Positions 22,927-31,444 of a DNA stretch of 64,000 nt are shown one piece after another. A model generated the notes under the pieces. It saw nothing but the letters and a program-made list of their open reading frames with translations. It searched no databases and had not been told where the DNA came from. Origin of the DNA: an uncultured Alphaproteobacteria bacterium (GTDB taxonomy: Bacteria; Pseudomonadota; Alphaproteobacteria; UBA11222); NCBI GenBank assembly GCA_947258435.1, contig CAMYID010000014.1:1-64000 (forward strand), written 5' to 3'. Within the stretch, counting starts at the first letter, position 1; each line of letters starts with the position of its first letter. The position numbers were made by a program, and so were the translations under genes.

Positions 22927-23466
22927 ATGTTAAATCGTTCGAAAATCGCAGTTGGGCTGGTTGCGGCATTATCGGTGTCCGCCCTTAATGGCGCAGCGTT
23001 CGCTGCAACGCAGGGTTCTTTGGGATCCACCTCAACCGGCACTTCCAGCCTTGATGCGACAGTGACAGATCTTGTGCAGATTACGGATGTCAACGATATC
23101 ACATTGAGTGCGGCTTCGGCTTCGGATCCGCTTGTGGGTAGTGACAGCAGCGTCTGCGTGTATTCAAATGCGTCAGGCAATCTGTACGAAATTACAGCAT
23201 CGTCGGCAAACGGCTCAGGGTCGTTCCTGCTCAACGATGGCTCGAATACCATGGCCTATACGGTTAACTGGACTGATTCTGCTGCTACCACCGTTGCACT
23301 GAGCGAAGGGGCGCAGAGCAGTTCGAATTTTGCCGGTTCGGCCAGCACCAGCTGTGCTGATACAAAAGTCTCGAGCGTTGCATTGAGTGTGCCGGCGGCC
23401 ACCTGGACGACATCGCCGGCGGGTACCTACAACGATACACTGACATTGGTCGTTGCACCCAACTAG
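22927..23466 (+). CDS. Chaperone-usher pilin 1
   Basis: A 179-residue secreted subunit. The signal peptide (about 26 residues, ending NGAAFA) is followed by ATQGSLGSTSTGTSSLDATV, a donor-strand-like N-terminal extension of about 23 residues, and then the Ig-like pilin fold. Shared landmarks with the next two genes are CVYSN (Cys77), YEITASSANGSGSF, YTVNWTD, SxSC (Cys143) and the final strand AGTYNDTLTLVV. The two cysteines should form a disulfide. GGAGGGAGCAAGG lies just before the ATG. The function follows from resemblance to pilus subunits and from the usher and chaperone genes downstream; I place it with the CS1/alpha or spore-coat-U-like groups, without certainty. Confidence 0.75.
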   Translation: MLNRSKIAVGLVAALSVSALNGAAFAATQGSLGSTSTGTSSLDATVTDLVQITDVNDITLSAASASDPLVGSDSSVCVYSNASGNLYEITASSANGSGSFLLNDGSNTMAYTVNWTDSAATTVALSEGAQSSSNFAGSASTSCADTKVSSVALSVPAATWTTSPAGTYNDTLTLVVAPN

Positions 23467-23689: not shown

Positions 23690-24235
23690 ATGAGGGGATG
23701 GTTACAGAAAAGCAGCCGATTTATCCTCGCCGGGGCGTTGGCTGCGCCATTTATCGGGCCGCAATCGCAGGCCCTTGCGGCAACGCAGGGACTTTTTGGT
23801 CCCACCTCCACCGCCATTGCCAAAATCAGTGTTATCATTCCGGCAATGGTTGCGGTCACAAATGTCGCCGATATGGTGCTGACGGCCGGTGACGCCGGGG
23901 AACCGATCGAGGGCAGCGAAGAAATCTGCGTTTATTCGAATGCCAATGCGCTTTACAAGGTGCGCGCCACCTCGGCCAATGGCAGCGGCGATTTTTCAGT
24001 GAGTTCCGATGGTGTCAGTCTGCCCTATGAGGTGATGTGGGCGGATGATAATGACACCCAGGCTGTTCTGTCGGAAGGCAATGTGACCAATGTGTCCTTT
24101 CTCGGGTCAGCAGATATGGATTGCTCCGATGATGTGAGGTCGCGCTTTTCCGTGAATGTCGCAAGCACTGATTGGCAGCTTGCGCCTGAAGGGGTGTATA
24201 CGGACACGCTGACCCTTGAGATTTCGCCAAGTTGA
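23690..24235 (+). CDS. Chaperone-usher pilin 2
   Basis: A 181-residue paralogue of pilin 1. The signal peptide ends at QALA (residue 30). The mature N-terminus ATQGLFGPTSTAIAKISVII aligns with that of pilin 1 (ATQG, then TST), giving a donor-strand extension of about 23 residues with alternating hydrophobics. The core repeats the landmarks CVYSN (Cys80), VRATSANGSGDFSV, YEVMWADD, MDC (Cys145) and EGVYTDTLTLEI. The divergence from pilin 1 is large, so this is an old duplication. It is separated from pilin 1 by 223 bp, and no strong ribosome site is seen. A structural subunit of the same fibre is likely. Confidence 0.72.
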   Translation: MRGWLQKSSRFILAGALAAPFIGPQSQALAATQGLFGPTSTAIAKISVIIPAMVAVTNVADMVLTAGDAGEPIEGSEEICVYSNANALYKVRATSANGSGDFSVSSDGVSLPYEVMWADDNDTQAVLSEGNVTNVSFLGSADMDCSDDVRSRFSVNVASTDWQLAPEGVYTDTLTLEISPS

Positions 24236-24265: not shown

Positions 24266-24518
24266 ATATATTACCCGGAACCAGCACCGTACCGCCCTTT
24301 CATGGGCGTGCGGTTACCACTCTGTTTGGTTTGATTAAGACAAGTTGGGTATATCCGTTCCGGCCAGTTTACCGCCTTTTTTTATTTTGGAAATTATCGT
24401 TAAAAAAGTTTGAAAAATGCTTTCTCCCTGATTGGTTGTGGCAGCCAACAAGCACCGGCCAGAGGTGATCTAACGCGCAATACCGGAATTTTCTGAATAA
24501 CCGTCGAATTTTGAATTA

Positions 24519-25025
24519 ATGTGTTTTCACGCTACCAGATTAAAAACTGTCTTTGCCTTTGCGATTGGCGTGGCACTGTTCTGCGTGAGCTTGCCGGGCG
24601 GGGCGTGGGCACAAAAGGTGCAAATAGATAATATCGACGATCTGGCGCTGGGTACCTGGAGCGGCGTTGGCGATTTGTCGGCTGCTGACAATGTCTGTAT
24701 TCATTCACGACATTCGGGTCAGACTTACGGTATCACGCTGACCGGGGATGGCGCTGGCGGGGCCTTCACATTATCAAGCGGTGCGCCAACCCTTTTGCCT
24801 TACCGTGTATACTGGAATGATGAAATCACCGAGGTCGGCAAGGTCGAAGTGTTCGCCGGTGTAAAACTCGGTAGTCAAACCGGTGCGTCACGTTTCAGGA
24901 GGTGCCGTTTTGTCCCGACGGGTACGAACGCCAATTTCTCGGTCGAAATCTCCTCAACCGATCTGGAAGGCGTCCAGGCGGGGACTTATTCGGGTGTTTT
25001 GACCCTGTTTCTTGGGCCACCCTGA
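24519..25025 (+). CDS. Pilin-like subunit 3 without donor-strand extension (candidate tip subunit)
   Basis: A 168-residue secreted protein. The signal peptide ends GGAWA (residue 31). The mature protein begins [13 protein letters not shown], which lines up directly with VQITDVNDITL of pilin 1 and VAVTNVADMVL of pilin 2. Mature start to first Cys is 28 residues here (Cys60) against 49-50 in the other two, so the 20-odd residue extension is absent. The rest is conserved: [30 protein letters not shown] (Cys129), and [13 protein letters not shown] subunit that receives but cannot donate a strand can only sit at the fibre tip. The role is inferred. The gene ends 17 bp from the convergent usher gene. 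Confidence 0.68.
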
Positions 25026-25042: not shown

Positions 25043-27586
25043 TCAGCTTTCAGGTACGCATGTCAGATCGTCGTCCAGAACGATAAAGCCGGAGATTTTT
25101 TCAACTTTCCTGGGCAGGGTGGCGCGGCAGACACCGTCCCCGCGTATTTTAACGTCAATTGTTTCAGGCAGTCCGGTAAATTCCGTCTGGAAAAAACCGC
25201 CCTGTTCGATCGGGACATTGCCATTGGCTGAATTGGTGATATAGCCGTTCGCAACCGGTGCCCCGCGCATATCCAGCAATTTCCCGAAAACGACGATGAC
25301 CGGCGCAACATCCCAAGTCAGATGGATGACATTGCCCGGGTAAAGCGTAAGCTTGTGAATTTCTTCGGGGTAGCTCAACAGTTCCGCGCCGACCGCAGCG
25401 ATACTGACGGTATGTGTCTCAAAGGTATTCATCGGAATAACAACGGTCTTGCCGACGGCGCTGCGGCTGTTGACGGCCTGATTGACCAGAATATCGAATG
25501 GCGCCCCCTCAGGTTCGCCACGAATATCGACGACAATTGCTGCCTCGCGACGTTCCCGCCCGCCAATGGCGACAAATTTGCCATTGCTCACGACATTCAC
25601 GTCAAAGTTCGAGCTCAGCGTCCGGCTGCTGCTATTGTCATTGCGATTGAACAGTGAATTGACATCAATCTTGCCGAACCGGGATTGATAATCGCCGCCC
25701 AGTTGCAGTTGCCGCTCATCCCCTTCGCCCCGGAAGCTTGTGTTTACGCCATATTCATGGTCTTGCGGGTCGCCGAACTGATGGCTGGCATTGCCCTCGA
25801 CGATCGGGTCGAATCCATCCTGGGAACTGGTCGTTGGCCGACGGGACTGATCGTAAGAACCGCCCAGGTTCATAGAGGCGCTTGTCCGGGCATCGAGAAA
25901 GGAAAACTGAAACCCGAAACGGGTCAGTGTTTCATCCTGCGACATGGTGCTGTTACCCACGAATTCAAGCCGGTAGGGTGGCCTGGTTAACAGCGAGAGC
26001 CGAATATCGGGGCCAAATGACCAGCTTTCATCGCTATTGTTGCTTTCGCGCCAATTGGCCCGGAAACCCAGACTGGTGCCTTTAAGATTATAACTCAGAT
26101 TCAAGTTGGCTTGCTTGAAGGGGGCCGGCAACGGGTTGAAGGCATTTGTTGAACGCTCTTCCGTGCCGTCCACAATCGTTACCCCGACATTGCTGGAAAA
26201 GGGTTGCGCCTGAAACGTCAGATTGCCGGACAAACCAAACACGCCTTCCGCGCCGAAGACAAAACTCTGGCGATATTTCAGCAGCCGTGTCTGGTAATAG
26301 CCCTCAAAATCAACAAACGGGTCACCGGGGCTTGCGGTAACACCGGCCCCGACCGCAATGTTGTCACGAAGACGCCAACGGCTTGCCGCGCGTAACATGG
26401 GTTGGGTTGTAAAAGCGGGGACGCCCACATCCTGCTGCCCCTGATCGCGCAGAACTCCGGCTTCAACCGACCAGATGGGTTCTCCTGCCGGGGGGATTTC
26501 CATGCTTTTGGAATAGAAACGTTCGACTTCCCTTGTGCGGCCCGTGTTCTCGCGTATTTTCAGCGTCACATTATAGGCGCCGTCGGGCAGCCCGCTTGTA
26601 TCGATAATCTGATTGCCCGCCGGATAAAATCTGGTCGAGACGATCCGGTCGTCTTTCAGCAATTGTACCTCGCTCGCCACGGGCAGAAAGACCTGGATCT
26701 GTGATCCGAAGCCTTGCTGCAGATCAAGTCTTGTGTCACGGGAATAGCCCGCACCCAACCCCAGCACGTCTTCAGCGCCAATCGGACTGGCCGAACGTGT
26801 GCGGAACATGCCGGCTTTCAGCCGAATGCCTTTTCTGTCCTGCTGACCGACAATCTCACTGATGATGAGTTTTCCTGAATTGTCGGTTTCGTCTTTACTG
26901 ATCGAATTGGAAATCCGCAGGTTCTTTTCCTTGTGACTGAGATTTGTGATGCCGTTGAAATTGAAGACGCGCGCTTCGCTGTCGGTCTGGCTGAACGCAC
27001 CGCTGATATTCTGCAATAAGGAAAACCCGGCATCCGAATCGGGCAGGAATTTCAGTAAATCCGGACCTCGCACTTCCAGGAAAAACGGATTGATGAACAA
27101 ATCCGCCCGAAAATTGTCCAGATCGAATATGACGCCCGCGATCTCGGGCTGCAGGCGGCCGCAATTACCCTTGTTAAGCGGCCCGCAAAGCAAATGCGCA
27201 TTGGGGGACAGTTCTTTCCCAAGCGCGTCTGTGACAATCGCTTTGTCGCGGATTTGCGGAACCGCATCGACGACCGCTTCCGGATTCCGGAACTGAATGC
27301 TGTCAGGTGTATAGACAATATCGAAACCGTCGACGAACTGTCCGGCAAGGTAAAGATCGACAACTGTTTCCTGCGGTTCCGCCAGATCTTCGAAGCCCGG
27401 CGGTGGTTTCCTGCTGGTTTTCATTTGTGCGAATGCCGGCGTGCATAGCGCAACCGTCAACAGGCAGATCAAAATCCGCCCTGAAAGACAATGTACCGTT
27501 TTACGCGGTGATGCATGCCGCAGCAGGCTGGAAAAAATCAGTCTGACACTACCGGGTGGGGAACCTGCCACAATTGCGGTGTTCAT
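25043..27586 (-). CDS. Outer-membrane usher, TcfC/CS1-like
   Basis: An 847-residue usher that forms the outer-membrane pore for pilus subunits. A signal peptide (RILICLLTVALCTPAFAQ) is preceded by an unusually long n-region of about 35 residues. The N-terminal domain contains DLYLAGQFVDGFDIVYTP and a disulfide-like pair (CGPLNKGNC). A beta-barrel follows (many alternating strands such as SRWRLRDNIAVGAGVTASPG), with a C-terminal domain FGKLLDMRGAPVANGYIT and a final Cys pair (VCRATL, LTCVPES). The features match ushers of the alpha (CS1/Tcf) group more than the FimD group. It starts 5 bp after the chaperone stop with no own ribosome site, so translation is probably coupled. Confidence 0.85.
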   Translation of the reverse strand: MNTAIVAGSPPGSVRLIFSSLLRHASPRKTVHCLSGRILICLLTVALCTPAFAQMKTSRKPPPGFEDLAEPQETVVDLYLAGQFVDGFDIVYTPDSIQFRNPEAVVDAVPQIRDKAIVTDALGKELSPNAHLLCGPLNKGNCGRLQPEIAGVIFDLDNFRADLFINPFFLEVRGPDLLKFLPDSDAGFSLLQNISGAFSQTDSEARVFNFNGITNLSHKEKNLRISNSISKDETDNSGKLIISEIVGQQDRKGIRLKAGMFRTRSASPIGAEDVLGLGAGYSRDTRLDLQQGFGSQIQVFLPVASEVQLLKDDRIVSTRFYPAGNQIIDTSGLPDGAYNVTLKIRENTGRTREVERFYSKSMEIPPAGEPIWSVEAGVLRDQGQQDVGVPAFTTQPMLRAASRWRLRDNIAVGAGVTASPGDPFVDFEGYYQTRLLKYRQSFVFGAEGVFGLSGNLTFQAQPFSSNVGVTIVDGTEERSTNAFNPLPAPFKQANLNLSYNLKGTSLGFRANWRESNNSDESWSFGPDIRLSLLTRPPYRLEFVGNSTMSQDETLTRFGFQFSFLDARTSASMNLGGSYDQSRRPTTSSQDGFDPIVEGNASHQFGDPQDHEYGVNTSFRGEGDERQLQLGGDYQSRFGKIDVNSLFNRNDNSSSRTLSSNFDVNVVSNGKFVAIGGRERREAAIVVDIRGEPEGAPFDILVNQAVNSRSAVGKTVVIPMNTFETHTVSIAAVGAELLSYPEEIHKLTLYPGNVIHLTWDVAPVIVVFGKLLDMRGAPVANGYITNSANGNVPIEQGGFFQTEFTGLPETIDVKIRGDGVCRATLPRKVEKISGFIVLDDDLTCVPES

Positions 27587-27591
27587 CAGTA

Positions 27592-28284
27592 CTATTCAAG
27601 GCGGAAAGATCTGAATTCGTCACCGATTCGCGCGGTAAATTCCACCGGTATATTGGCAAGCGGAAGTTCTGTGACGATTTCGTTGCCCGCATAGAGCCGA
27701 CCGATCGTGATTTCTTCGCAATCTTCGGCCGCACGGCATTGATTTGCGACACCCACCATGATGTTGGTGTTGCCGCTGTTGCGCAGTTTCAGCGTTTTTC
27801 CGGTGATTTCATGCTCAAGTTGCGGGGCCATCGGATTGGGGCGCACCATGACAAGCATATCATAGCCAACCAGTACCTTGATGCCTGTCACTTCCGCTTC
27901 GACATCGCCGATAACCGGACGCACGCGAACGCGAAATATCCTTTCAGTTTCAAAACTGTCGCGGATATTGACAATCCGGATCCGGCGGCTGCCGCCGGGA
28001 TTGATGGCAAGTCTGATCGGGCTGATCAGCAGGCCGGCATCGCGGGGATCGCGAATCGGCGCGCGGGATTCGGTTTTTTCGCCAGGATTGAGGATTTCAG
28101 CCGGTTCGATATCGACGTAAACAGTTTCGTCCCATGTGTTGCGGACGACCACATCCTGTCTGTTCGGACTATCTGGCAGGAAATCCAGGACAATTTTGTC
28201 CAGCGCCAGCTGTGCATGAGCGTCGAACGAAAAAGTTAGGCTGCACACGCACAGCGCAAACAGTGCGAATAGTCCCCTTACCAT
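27592..28284 (-). CDS. Periplasmic pilus assembly chaperone
   Basis: A 230-residue chaperone with two Ig-like domains. The signal peptide is MVRGLFALFALCVCSLTFSF, with cleavage after DAHA. The first domain begins LALDKIVLDFLPDSPNRQDV and has the SPIRLAINPGGSRRIRIV region, matching the subunit-binding strand where conserved basic residues anchor subunit ends. Chaperones of this type hold each subunit by donating a strand and deliver it to the usher. The frame is open upstream to 28446, but the signal peptide places the start at 28284. First gene of a two-gene operon with the usher; no pilin gene is in this operon. Confidence 0.85.
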   Translation of the reverse strand: MVRGLFALFALCVCSLTFSFDAHAQLALDKIVLDFLPDSPNRQDVVVRNTWDETVYVDIEPAEILNPGEKTESRAPIRDPRDAGLLISPIRLAINPGGSRRIRIVNIRDSFETERIFRVRVRPVIGDVEAEVTGIKVLVGYDMLVMVRPNPMAPQLEHEITGKTLKLRNSGNTNIMVGVANQCRAAEDCEEITIGRLYAGNEIVTELPLANIPVEFTARIGDEFRSFRLE

Positions 28285-28610
28285 CTGCTTACCCGAAAAA
28301 TTGCCGCAATTTGTTAGCACTGGTCCACCGGAGTTTTTCGACGATCGCATTATCGCCAGCCATAGCCGCAAGGGGCTTGCCCTGTCTAAAGGGCCGGCCC
28401 GCAAGATACCATAGGTCCTGCAAATAAATCTGTGTGCCTTAAACACACGGTATACGTATAACGCAAGTTAGTTAAAATTTATGATTAAACAGTCGGATAT
28501 CGGTAAACATAGCCAAATAGCCGGAAAATTCCAGTATCGATCCTGCCTAAATGATGCAGAACTGCAACATCTGGCAAGATCTGACGGTGTTTTCCTGCGA
28601 CTGTTTGCCT
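28285..28610. other. Intergenic region upstream of the chaperone-usher operon
   Basis: About 325 bp without a supported gene, between the histidine kinase 3' end and the chaperone start. It is AT-rich around 28440-28520 and should contain the operon promoter. TTAA pairs occur at 28473 and 28487, but their spacing does not fit the CtrA consensus. Confidence 0.4.
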
Positions 28611-31265
28611 TTATTGCGCGGCGTTCAGGGCGGGTTGTGCATCGGTCTTGCGGGTAGCCACCTCCGGCGGTCCCGATATGGGTAAGCGCACCGTGAAGGT
28701 AGAGCCTTCGCCGACCGCGCTGTCGACGGTGATGTTGCCGCCATGCATTGTAACCAGTTGCTGGACCAGGTTGAGGCCGATACCGGTGCCCGCGATACCT
28801 GTGGATGTTTCGGCCCGAAAAAACCGGGTGAACAAATGCTGCTGGTCCGCCGGACTGATTCCCAGCCCGTGGTCCCGCACAGACATATATATGTCATCGC
28901 CGCCGCGCCAGCCGGTAATTGTGATTTCAGGGCTGTCGGGGGCATATTTCACAGCATTTGAAATGAGGTTGGTCACGATCTGATCGACCGCAGCGCGGTC
29001 GGCACAGATTTTCGATGGCAGCTCATCCAATGCGATCGTGAATTTGTGATTTGTCGAGACGTCCTGCTGGCGTTCGCAGACCTCGCGGACAAGGCGGGCA
29101 ATATCGAAACTCTGTGGATTGATCTCAATCTTGCCGGCATCGATCCGTGCCGCGGTCAGTGTGCTTTCGATCAGGTTGGTCATGCGGATGACCGCAGCGC
29201 GGATTTTCTCAACCCGCCTGAGCGGTCGCTCCGCACGATGTTTTTTCAGATCGCGCGTCAGCAACTGGGCCGAACTGTCGATTATCGCAAGCGGTGTCCG
29301 GAATTCATGTGATGCCATAGAGACGAACTGCCGTTGAAGGTCATTGAGTTCTTTTTCCTTGCTGAGCGCTTGACCCAGTTCCGTTGCCTGTTCGACAAGC
29401 CGCCGTTCCTGCTGCTTGTATCGTGTGACATCTGTATGCAGAATAATAAGTCCGCCATCGGGAACCCGTGCGCGCGTGATTTTGACCCAACGCCCATTGG
29501 GCAGCTCCATTTCATCTTCTGCATCGCCGCGGCGAATTTGCTCGAAATGCGTGGTCCAGTCGCGGTCATGATATGCGTCTCTCTGACGCTGAATTATCAT
29601 GCGTTCCATCAGGTCATTGAGGCTGCGTCCCGGTTCCAGAACATCTCTGATCTCGCTATGCATTTCTTTCATATGTTCATTGACGAGAACGATTTTCTCA
29701 TCGTCATCGAGCAGACAGAACCCGTCAGAAATGGCGTTAATGGCTGCCACAAGGCGTGCCTGGCTGTTCGAGATGTCGCGTGTCTGCGCCTCAACCAGTT
29801 CGGCCAGCTGATCCCGATGCCGCCGCAGTTCATTTTCGGCTGTAACCCGCGCGGTGATTTCCGTCATGGAGCCAGCGGCGCGGATGGGGCGGCCTTTCGC
29901 ATCCCGTCGCAATGCGCCCTTGCTATGAAACCAGTGATAGGCACCGTTCTTGTCGCGCAGTCTGAATTCTGAGTCGAAGGTAAGCTGTTTGCCATCCAGC
30001 CCCCTTTCGATCCGCCGGCGGGAGTCTTTCTGGTCATCGGGGTGGATGTAATCGTCAAGCTCTTCAATTGTATCGGCAAATTCCCCTTCTTCATAACCCA
30101 GTAATTCGCGCAGCCGCGGTGCCAGAAATGTCTGACCGGCCTTGAGGTCAATATCCCAAATGGCCGATTCCGCCCCCTCGATACAAAGCTGAAAGCGTTC
30201 TTTTATGGCTTCTGTATCAGCAAGCGCGTCCTGCAGCTTTTTCTGGATTGCATATTCATCCGTAATGTCCTGAATCATCGCGACAAACAGGTGGCGGTTG
30301 TCCGAGAATATCTCTGTCACGCGAATTTTGACCGGTGTGCTGCCCCCTTTACGGTGTTTTAGCCGCACGGGCCGGTTGGTGCCCAAAGCAAGTTCTGCCC
30401 AGCCACCGAGCGGCAGAGAGGGATCGCCGCTTTCCTCATCCTCGGTGGGTAGCAGGTCGCTGATCGAGTGGTTCAGCATTTCATCCGCGCGATAGCCAAA
30501 TATCTGTTCCGCCGCGCGGCTAAAGGTGTGGATAATGCCATCCTCATCGAAGGAGACTGTACCGTCGATGCTGAAATTCAACATGGCTTCGGCTGCTTCG
30601 GCCCGCTGCACCAGCAATTGTCTGGCGCCCAGCGTGCTGTTCTCCATATCCTTGGCGTATCTGATTTTCGGGCGCAGCACCCATAGTTCAAGGATCGCCA
30701 GAAAGCCGAGAATGCCTATCAGGCCGTAAACAGACCAGTGAATCAGTTCAATATTGATCCTGTTTCCGGCGCGGGAGAGCAGGTGATAAAACTCCTGTTG
30801 CGGCAAATCCGGGGCGACGGGAATGACAAGCGTCTGGCCTTGCCAGTCAGCCTCCAATAATTGCTGGATACTTTGTATGTAGGAATCGATGTCCTGTTCA
30901 TAGATATCAGCGAACTTGATGAGGATCTCATCATCACGGCTGTTGAAGATTTTTGTCGGTAGCGGCAGGTCCGACCGCCGTGCATGCGCGGCAACAAGCC
31001 CGTCTATTGCGCCCTCCAGCGCGCGGCGTACAAGCAGCCGGCTCTGGTCCGTATTATTGACCTCAAGCAATTGTGCCAGGCGCTCGGATTTCGCGGTATA
31101 ACGCGCTTCCCTTTGCAGGGCTTCCTGCAATGCCTGATAGTCGTAACTTTGCGTCACCAGATAGACGATGCTCAGCGCAAACAGCAGTATCACCGCGATT
31201 GCGGCGATCATCCCCGCTCTGACTGCTTGCTCGATCGGGCGAACGATTTCACTGGTCCGGTCCAT
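28611..31265 (-). CDS. Membrane sensor histidine kinase with three PAS domains
   Basis: An 884-residue sensor kinase. Two membrane helices (about residues 19-38, MIAAIAVILLFALSIVYLV, and 178-195, VYGLIGILGFLAILELWVL) enclose a periplasmic sensing region of about 140 residues. Three PAS domains follow: SIDGTVSFDEDGIIHTFSRA, AESAIWDIDLKAGQTFLAP and AISDGFCLLDDDEKIVLVNE. The HisKA phosphorylation site is SHEFRTPLAI, and the ATPase has NLISNAVKYAP, DHGLGISP and GTGIGLNLV. No receiver domain is attached. ATG 31265 follows AGGAGG; an upstream TTG (31289) is less likely. The divergent response regulator at 31445 is its likely partner. Whether the pair controls the adjacent pilus operon is not known. 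Confidence 0.93.
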   Translation of the reverse strand: MDRTSEIVRPIEQAVRAGMIAAIAVILLFALSIVYLVTQSYDYQALQEALQREARYTAKSERLAQLLEVNNTDQSRLLVRRALEGAIDGLVAAHARRSDLPLPTKIFNSRDDEILIKFADIYEQDIDSYIQSIQQLLEADWQGQTLVIPVAPDLPQQEFYHLLSRAGNRINIELIHWSVYGLIGILGFLAILELWVLRPKIRYAKDMENSTLGARQLLVQRAEAAEAMLNFSIDGTVSFDEDGIIHTFSRAAEQIFGYRADEMLNHSISDLLPTEDEESGDPSLPLGGWAELALGTNRPVRLKHRKGGSTPVKIRVTEIFSDNRHLFVAMIQDITDEYAIQKKLQDALADTEAIKERFQLCIEGAESAIWDIDLKAGQTFLAPRLRELLGYEEGEFADTIEELDDYIHPDDQKDSRRRIERGLDGKQLTFDSEFRLRDKNGAYHWFHSKGALRRDAKGRPIRAAGSMTEITARVTAENELRRHRDQLAELVEAQTRDISNSQARLVAAINAISDGFCLLDDDEKIVLVNEHMKEMHSEIRDVLEPGRSLNDLMERMIIQRQRDAYHDRDWTTHFEQIRRGDAEDEMELPNGRWVKITRARVPDGGLIILHTDVTRYKQQERRLVEQATELGQALSKEKELNDLQRQFVSMASHEFRTPLAIIDSSAQLLTRDLKKHRAERPLRRVEKIRAAVIRMTNLIESTLTAARIDAGKIEINPQSFDIARLVREVCERQQDVSTNHKFTIALDELPSKICADRAAVDQIVTNLISNAVKYAPDSPEITITGWRGGDDIYMSVRDHGLGISPADQQHLFTRFFRAETSTGIAGTGIGLNLVQQLVTMHGGNITVDSAVGEGSTFTVRLPISGPPEVATRKTDAQPALNAAQ

Positions 31266-31444
31266 TGGACGATAGCCTCCTGCACGCAAATATGGCGGCC
31301 AGAACTACACGTCAAAATAGTTATAAAACCGTGTATCCCGTTAAACGGTATTTGAATTCATAAAAAATATCAAAAATAGCATTTATTAATATTTTTCGTG
31401 TCAAGGTATGCATCCCAATGGGTTTTGGTTGTGGGAGGTTTGCA

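Follow-up and report, generated by a model that had tools for sequence, protein, structure and literature searches.

A pilin paralogue without an N-terminal extension is the probable single-domain tip of an alpha-type chaperone-usher fiber in Alphaproteobacteria

The DNA stretch analyzed here (64,000 nucleotides, referred to as the window) encodes three pilin paralogues, pil1, pil2 and pil3, together with an alpha-type usher and a periplasmic chaperone (Table 1). The third paralogue consists of a single pilin domain, lacks the N-terminal extension of the other two and is most likely the distal cap (tip) of a chaperone-usher fiber built from pil1 and pil2. Extension-less paralogues of this kind recur in the great majority of the alphaproteobacterial genomes that were found to carry an alpha-type usher.

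Results

The first-pass annotation of the locus had counted 49-50 residues from the mature N-terminus to the first cysteine in the first two pilins versus 28 in the third, and had concluded that an extension of about 21-23 residues is missing while the rest of the fold is kept. Both statements hold. With AxA signal-peptide cleavage sites set by hand, the distances amount to 50, 49 and 28 residues for pil1, pil2 and pil3, respectively, and only 2 residues precede the conserved first core strand in pil3 as compared with 23 in each of its two paralogues. The alignment of an 11-residue segment of the pil3 core with VQITDVNDITL and VAVTNVADMVL was reproduced without any other large gap, and the domain aligns with its paralogues over its full length, including the two cysteines and the C-terminal strand.

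An upstream start or a frameshift that restores the extension, which the first-pass annotation had named as the finding that would speak against its proposal, is ruled out by the in-frame TAA at 24498-24500 and by the non-conserved upstream DNA. Because of this stop codon, there is no room for a longer N-terminus; the intergenic region between pil2 and pil3 has diverged and is not conserved in comparison with the sister genome. A second species of the genus exhibits the identical gene order and encodes a pil3 of 169 residues (L015/L024, 1461-1967), which is 75-77% identical and also lacks the extension. Between the two species, dN/dS is 0.116 for pil3 and 0.086-0.108 for the neighboring genes, and pil3 is under purifying selection. 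These analyses confirm pil3 as a real gene from which the extension is really absent. Among the five proteins, pil3 has the lowest amino acid identity (75% versus 84-90%), and its dS is also the highest. The low conservation would be in keeping with an exposed tip, although it is no proof of one. The structure prediction proposed in the first-pass annotation was run for monomers, and the resulting AlphaFold (AF2) models of pil3 and pil2, based on a five-sequence alignment, were too poor to use (pLDDT 41.7 and 30.8), which is why they were not submitted to a fold search.

Table 1 Genes and gene parts of the chaperone-usher locus, with positions in the window.
Feature	Position	Strand	Assignment and basis
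pil1	22927..23466	+	Long pilin; ORF; mature start ATQG at about 23005
pil1 N-terminal extension, 23 residues	about 23005-23073	+	Extension length measured
pil2	23690..24235	+	Long pilin; ORF; extension about 23780-23848
pil3	24519..25025	+	Extension-less single-domain pilin, proposed tip/cap; ORF, alignment, sister-genome orthologue
pil3 signal peptide	24519-24611	+	Mature protein begins at Q32 (24612), core at V34
In-frame stop TAA	24498..24500	+	Just upstream of pil3; stop-to-stop frame from 24501 (PSNFEL-M)
Usher, alpha type	25043..27586	-	Pfam TcfC and CooC_C above cut-off
Periplasmic chaperone	27592..28446	-	TcfA chaperone model sole match, far below cut-off; orthologue adjoins usher in G001

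The assembly machinery is of the alpha type by the domains of its usher, which matches PF16967 (TcfC) with 53.4 bits (cut-off 29.4) and PF15976 (CooC_C) with 39.3 bits (cut-off 29), and weakly also the NCBIfam TcfC model. The chaperone, which in an alpha-type system would be of the FGA type, had its sole match to the NCBIfam TcfA model (E 1.6e-6, 27.9 bits, cut-off 500). For pil1, pil2 and pil3 neither Pfam nor NCBIfam returned a pilin family above cut-off, and they do not qualify as CS1/CfaB-type pilins. Scores for SCPU (PF05229) stayed under the cut-off of 22.4, with 13.2 bits (E 0.12) for pil3 and 18.7 bits (E 0.0023) for L017, and the profile of the pilin family picks up genuine SCPU proteins in genomes G047 and G179. 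A profile search of the PDB with the pilin family revealed nothing significant and no AfaD/AggB-type chain up to E 10. The chaperone gene is followed by a gene for a large protein resembling sensor histidine kinases (28611-31289, minus strand) and, beyond it, by a response-regulator-like frame, a layout also present in G001 (L024); the two proteins possibly regulate the pilus.

The first-pass annotation had suggested a search for homologues of the same length next to alpha-type ushers. When 385 sampled alphaproteobacterial genomes were searched with the pilin profile, matches were obtained in 17 of them, and a search with the usher CooC_C domain yielded 14 genomes in a largely overlapping set. 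G073, which appeared in the first list of PF15976 matches, was discarded as a false match with no homologue of the pilins, the chaperone or the usher nearby. The orders of three matching genomes were added to the sample, and the loci were collected. The curated set comprises 57 pilins, 38 long and 19 short, after exclusion of one FecR-fused protein; as the labels were assigned by hand, these counts are good to a few, with those for G354, G238 and G290 being less certain. A short pilin is encoded in 16 of the 18 genomes with an alpha-type (TcfC/CooC_C) usher, always together with at least one long pilin, and was not found in the remaining two, G128 and G326. This frequency excludes chance as an explanation for the architecture of pil3. 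A phylum-wide search in 299 genomes contributed few further members; every genome it listed belongs to the Alphaproteobacteria, so that it covered little beyond this class.

The long and the short pilins differ in the region preceding the core. In the 38 long pilins the positions -10, -8, -6 and -4, counted from the core strand, are hydrophobic in 68, 95, 95 and 92% of the sequences, respectively, with mostly polar residues in between, an alternation that is expected of a donor strand and is absent from all 19 short pilins. Their pre-core region mostly comprises 1-11 residues (19 in G290, mainly aspartate). The cores themselves are alike, with median lengths of 136 residues for short versus 135 for long pilins, and the short proteins end where the long ones end, without an extra C-terminal strand as a replacement. 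In the short pilins of G088, G404, G402 and G401 (L022, L089, L094, L097) a pair of cysteines resides just before the core (CLPTDLC, QCADPLSDKC), and an extra disulfide perhaps substitutes for the extension there.

Short pilin genes adjoin the usher or chaperone gene in the window and in G198, G290, G175, G294 and G387. The order is long pilin, short pilin, usher in G198 and G290, and short pilin, chaperone, usher, long pilin in G387, while in G175 a short and a long pilin both lie beside the usher gene. In G088, G063, G278, G184 and G402 the short pilins are encoded at a distance from the usher, one of them within a flagellar cluster; the G088 gene (L022 5461-5937, plus strand) is located next to genes resembling flgF, flgG, flgA and flgH, as named by eye.

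Several of the collected loci contain further peculiarities. The ushers of G198 and G290 (L075 6572-10375; L076 6549-10415) are alpha-type proteins of about 1270-1290 amino acids that continue via a long linker into a SPOR domain at the C-terminus, identified by a Pfam match on L075, and this domain suggests that they are anchored to peptidoglycan. The usher of G238 (L081 3626-7234; 1203 amino acids) carries a long, repeat-rich tail, and on the same contig SCPU-type pilin genes and an usher of their own come immediately after its alpha-type pilus locus. In G184 an open frame for 439 amino acids (L080 6188-7504, minus strand) combines an N-terminal FecR domain with a C-terminal domain of the pil1-pil3 pilin family. 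An open frame for 361 amino acids in G290 (L076 3708-4790, plus strand) has a long N-terminal part and a signal-like hydrophobic stretch ahead of an ATQG-type pilin sequence and possibly represents a fused or processed pilin.

Two phylogenetic analyses of the core domain bear on the origin of the short forms. In a tree of the complete initial set of rows, monophyly of the short forms was rejected (p 0.008); when the most divergent rows were dropped and new ones added, it was not rejected (p 0.083). The short and long pilins of G175 appeared as sisters in both (support 94/92, then 91/95), which hints at repeated loss of the extension.

The search for another tip was negative. No CblD-type two-domain tip (PF07434) was detected at a meaningful score in the 18 genomes with alpha-type ushers, and SCPU proteins above cut-off occur in these genomes only in G238, beside the second usher. 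In the 95%-complete genome from which the window stems, pil1, pil2 and pil3 are the only proteins in which the pilin domain was found, and the locus itself did not reveal any other tip candidate.

Discussion

In chaperone-usher fibers, each subunit normally lends its N-terminal extension strand to a neighbor. As pil3 retains an incomplete Ig-like core and the C-terminal strand, it would need a donor strand, which would be supplied first by the chaperone and then by the subunit added next, through its N-terminal extension, so that the groove is predicted to be completed by pil1 or pil2. Pil3 has no extension and for this reason cannot donate a strand itself. A subunit with a groove and no extension could therefore enter the fiber only by being the first to arrive at the usher, and it would hence come to lie at the distal tip, in one copy per fiber. 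In this position pil3 probably primes the usher and initiates assembly, and it may carry any tip-specific adhesion. Initiation by the tip has also been proposed for class 5 assembly (PMC7531860). The suggestion made at the outset that pil3 is a one-domain subunit confined to the distal end thus stands as the best reading and is strengthened by the recurrence of the architecture across the class; the position follows by deduction from donor-strand rules.

In principle, pil3 can be interpreted in other ways. We consider it unlikely that pil3 is a chaperone-dependent, pilin-like protein that resides in the periplasm or is secreted and acts outside of fibers, for example as a regulator that occupies the chaperone or the usher and limits assembly. 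Several short paralogues are indeed encoded away from the usher, and a pure strand acceptor could tie up donor subunits. However, one or two short copies recur together with long pilins and an usher, the short genes adjoin the usher or the chaperone gene in several genomes, and known caps have the same build (PMC5029526). Rather improbable is also that the real tip is a different, two-domain protein and that pil3 serves as a second minor cap or an adaptor-like subunit. The characterized alpha-type tip CfaE does possess two domains (PMC7531860), and profile searches could miss a tip that has diverged strongly, but an adaptor role requires strand donation, of which pil3 is incapable, and neither a CblD, an SCPU nor any other pilin-domain protein was found in the 95%-complete genome, nor any other candidate within the locus.

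Isolated subunits can swap strands, as exemplified by the engineered HdaB-dsA, which crystallized as a domain-swapped dimer (PMC5029526), and pil3 might accordingly be an adhesin that is exported unpolymerized, either as a dimer or on its own, with its fold closed by swapped strands or by its own terminal strand. The fact that the short forms, pil3 included, end like long pilins, with no strand to spare, renders this very improbable. Least of all do we believe that pil3 is a decaying gene copy or has a wrongly annotated start and is short of the extension by accident. A 5' stretch is easily lost by mutation, and one of the tree tests suggests more than one origin of the short forms, yet pil3 is conserved in a second species with a low dN/dS, the upstream stop codon leaves no space, and the short form recurs across the class.

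As a distal cap, pil3 would follow a principle that is already known from gamma3/FGL fibers. AggB and AafB are described as capping subunits lacking an NTE, with HdaB as the AAF/IV counterpart (PMC5029526), and SafD caps Saf pili (PMC5700814). These proteins and AfaD/DraD of the polyadhesive gamma3/FGL fibers resemble the proposed cap in that a single Ig-like minor subunit, completed by the extension of the major subunit, caps the fiber, and pil3 likewise has one pilin domain without a donor strand and partner pilins with extensions in the same locus. In contrast, their fibers depend for assembly on FGL chaperones of the classical kind and on gamma3 ushers, and a profile search did not find sequence similarity between their solved chains and the pilins studied here. 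The initial view that a one-domain cap is unusual among tips must therefore be narrowed in the light of AggB, AafB and SafD; what is new is the recurrent, probable single-domain, extension-less cap in alpha-type systems of Alphaproteobacteria. A first literature query on alphaproteobacterial alpha fimbriae found no paper.

With the alpha systems CFA/I (class 5; CfaA-CfaB-CfaC-CfaE) and Salmonella Tcf, the locus shares the TcfC and CooC_C domains of the usher, a chaperone that is weakly TcfA-like and an N-terminal extension donated by the major pilin. It differs from them in that its pilins show no match to the CS1 family and a two-domain tip resembling CblD/CfaE, in which an adhesin domain is combined with a pilin domain (CfaE of CFA/I; PMC7531860), was not found. 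The distant SCPU likeness of the pilins, visible in weak matches, recalls the archaic (sigma) Csu and CupE pili, from which the usher differs by its domains. The archaic tips CsuE and CupE6 contain two Ig-like domains (PMC10104325).

One may speculate, with considerable reservation, that one-domain, extension-less caps replace two-domain adhesins in a whole class of alphaproteobacterial chaperone-usher fibers, that they arose by repeated duplication of shaft pilins and loss of the donor strand, and that the identity of the tip would be set solely by the missing strand. The data document alpha-type ushers in Alphaproteobacteria and provide a simple sequence rule, core kept and extension gone, by which the tip of uncharacterized chaperone-usher fibers without a recognizable adhesin domain can be named. 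They also make it testable whether a shaft pilin can become an assembly-initiating tip through a missing donor strand alone, without the need for a lectin domain.
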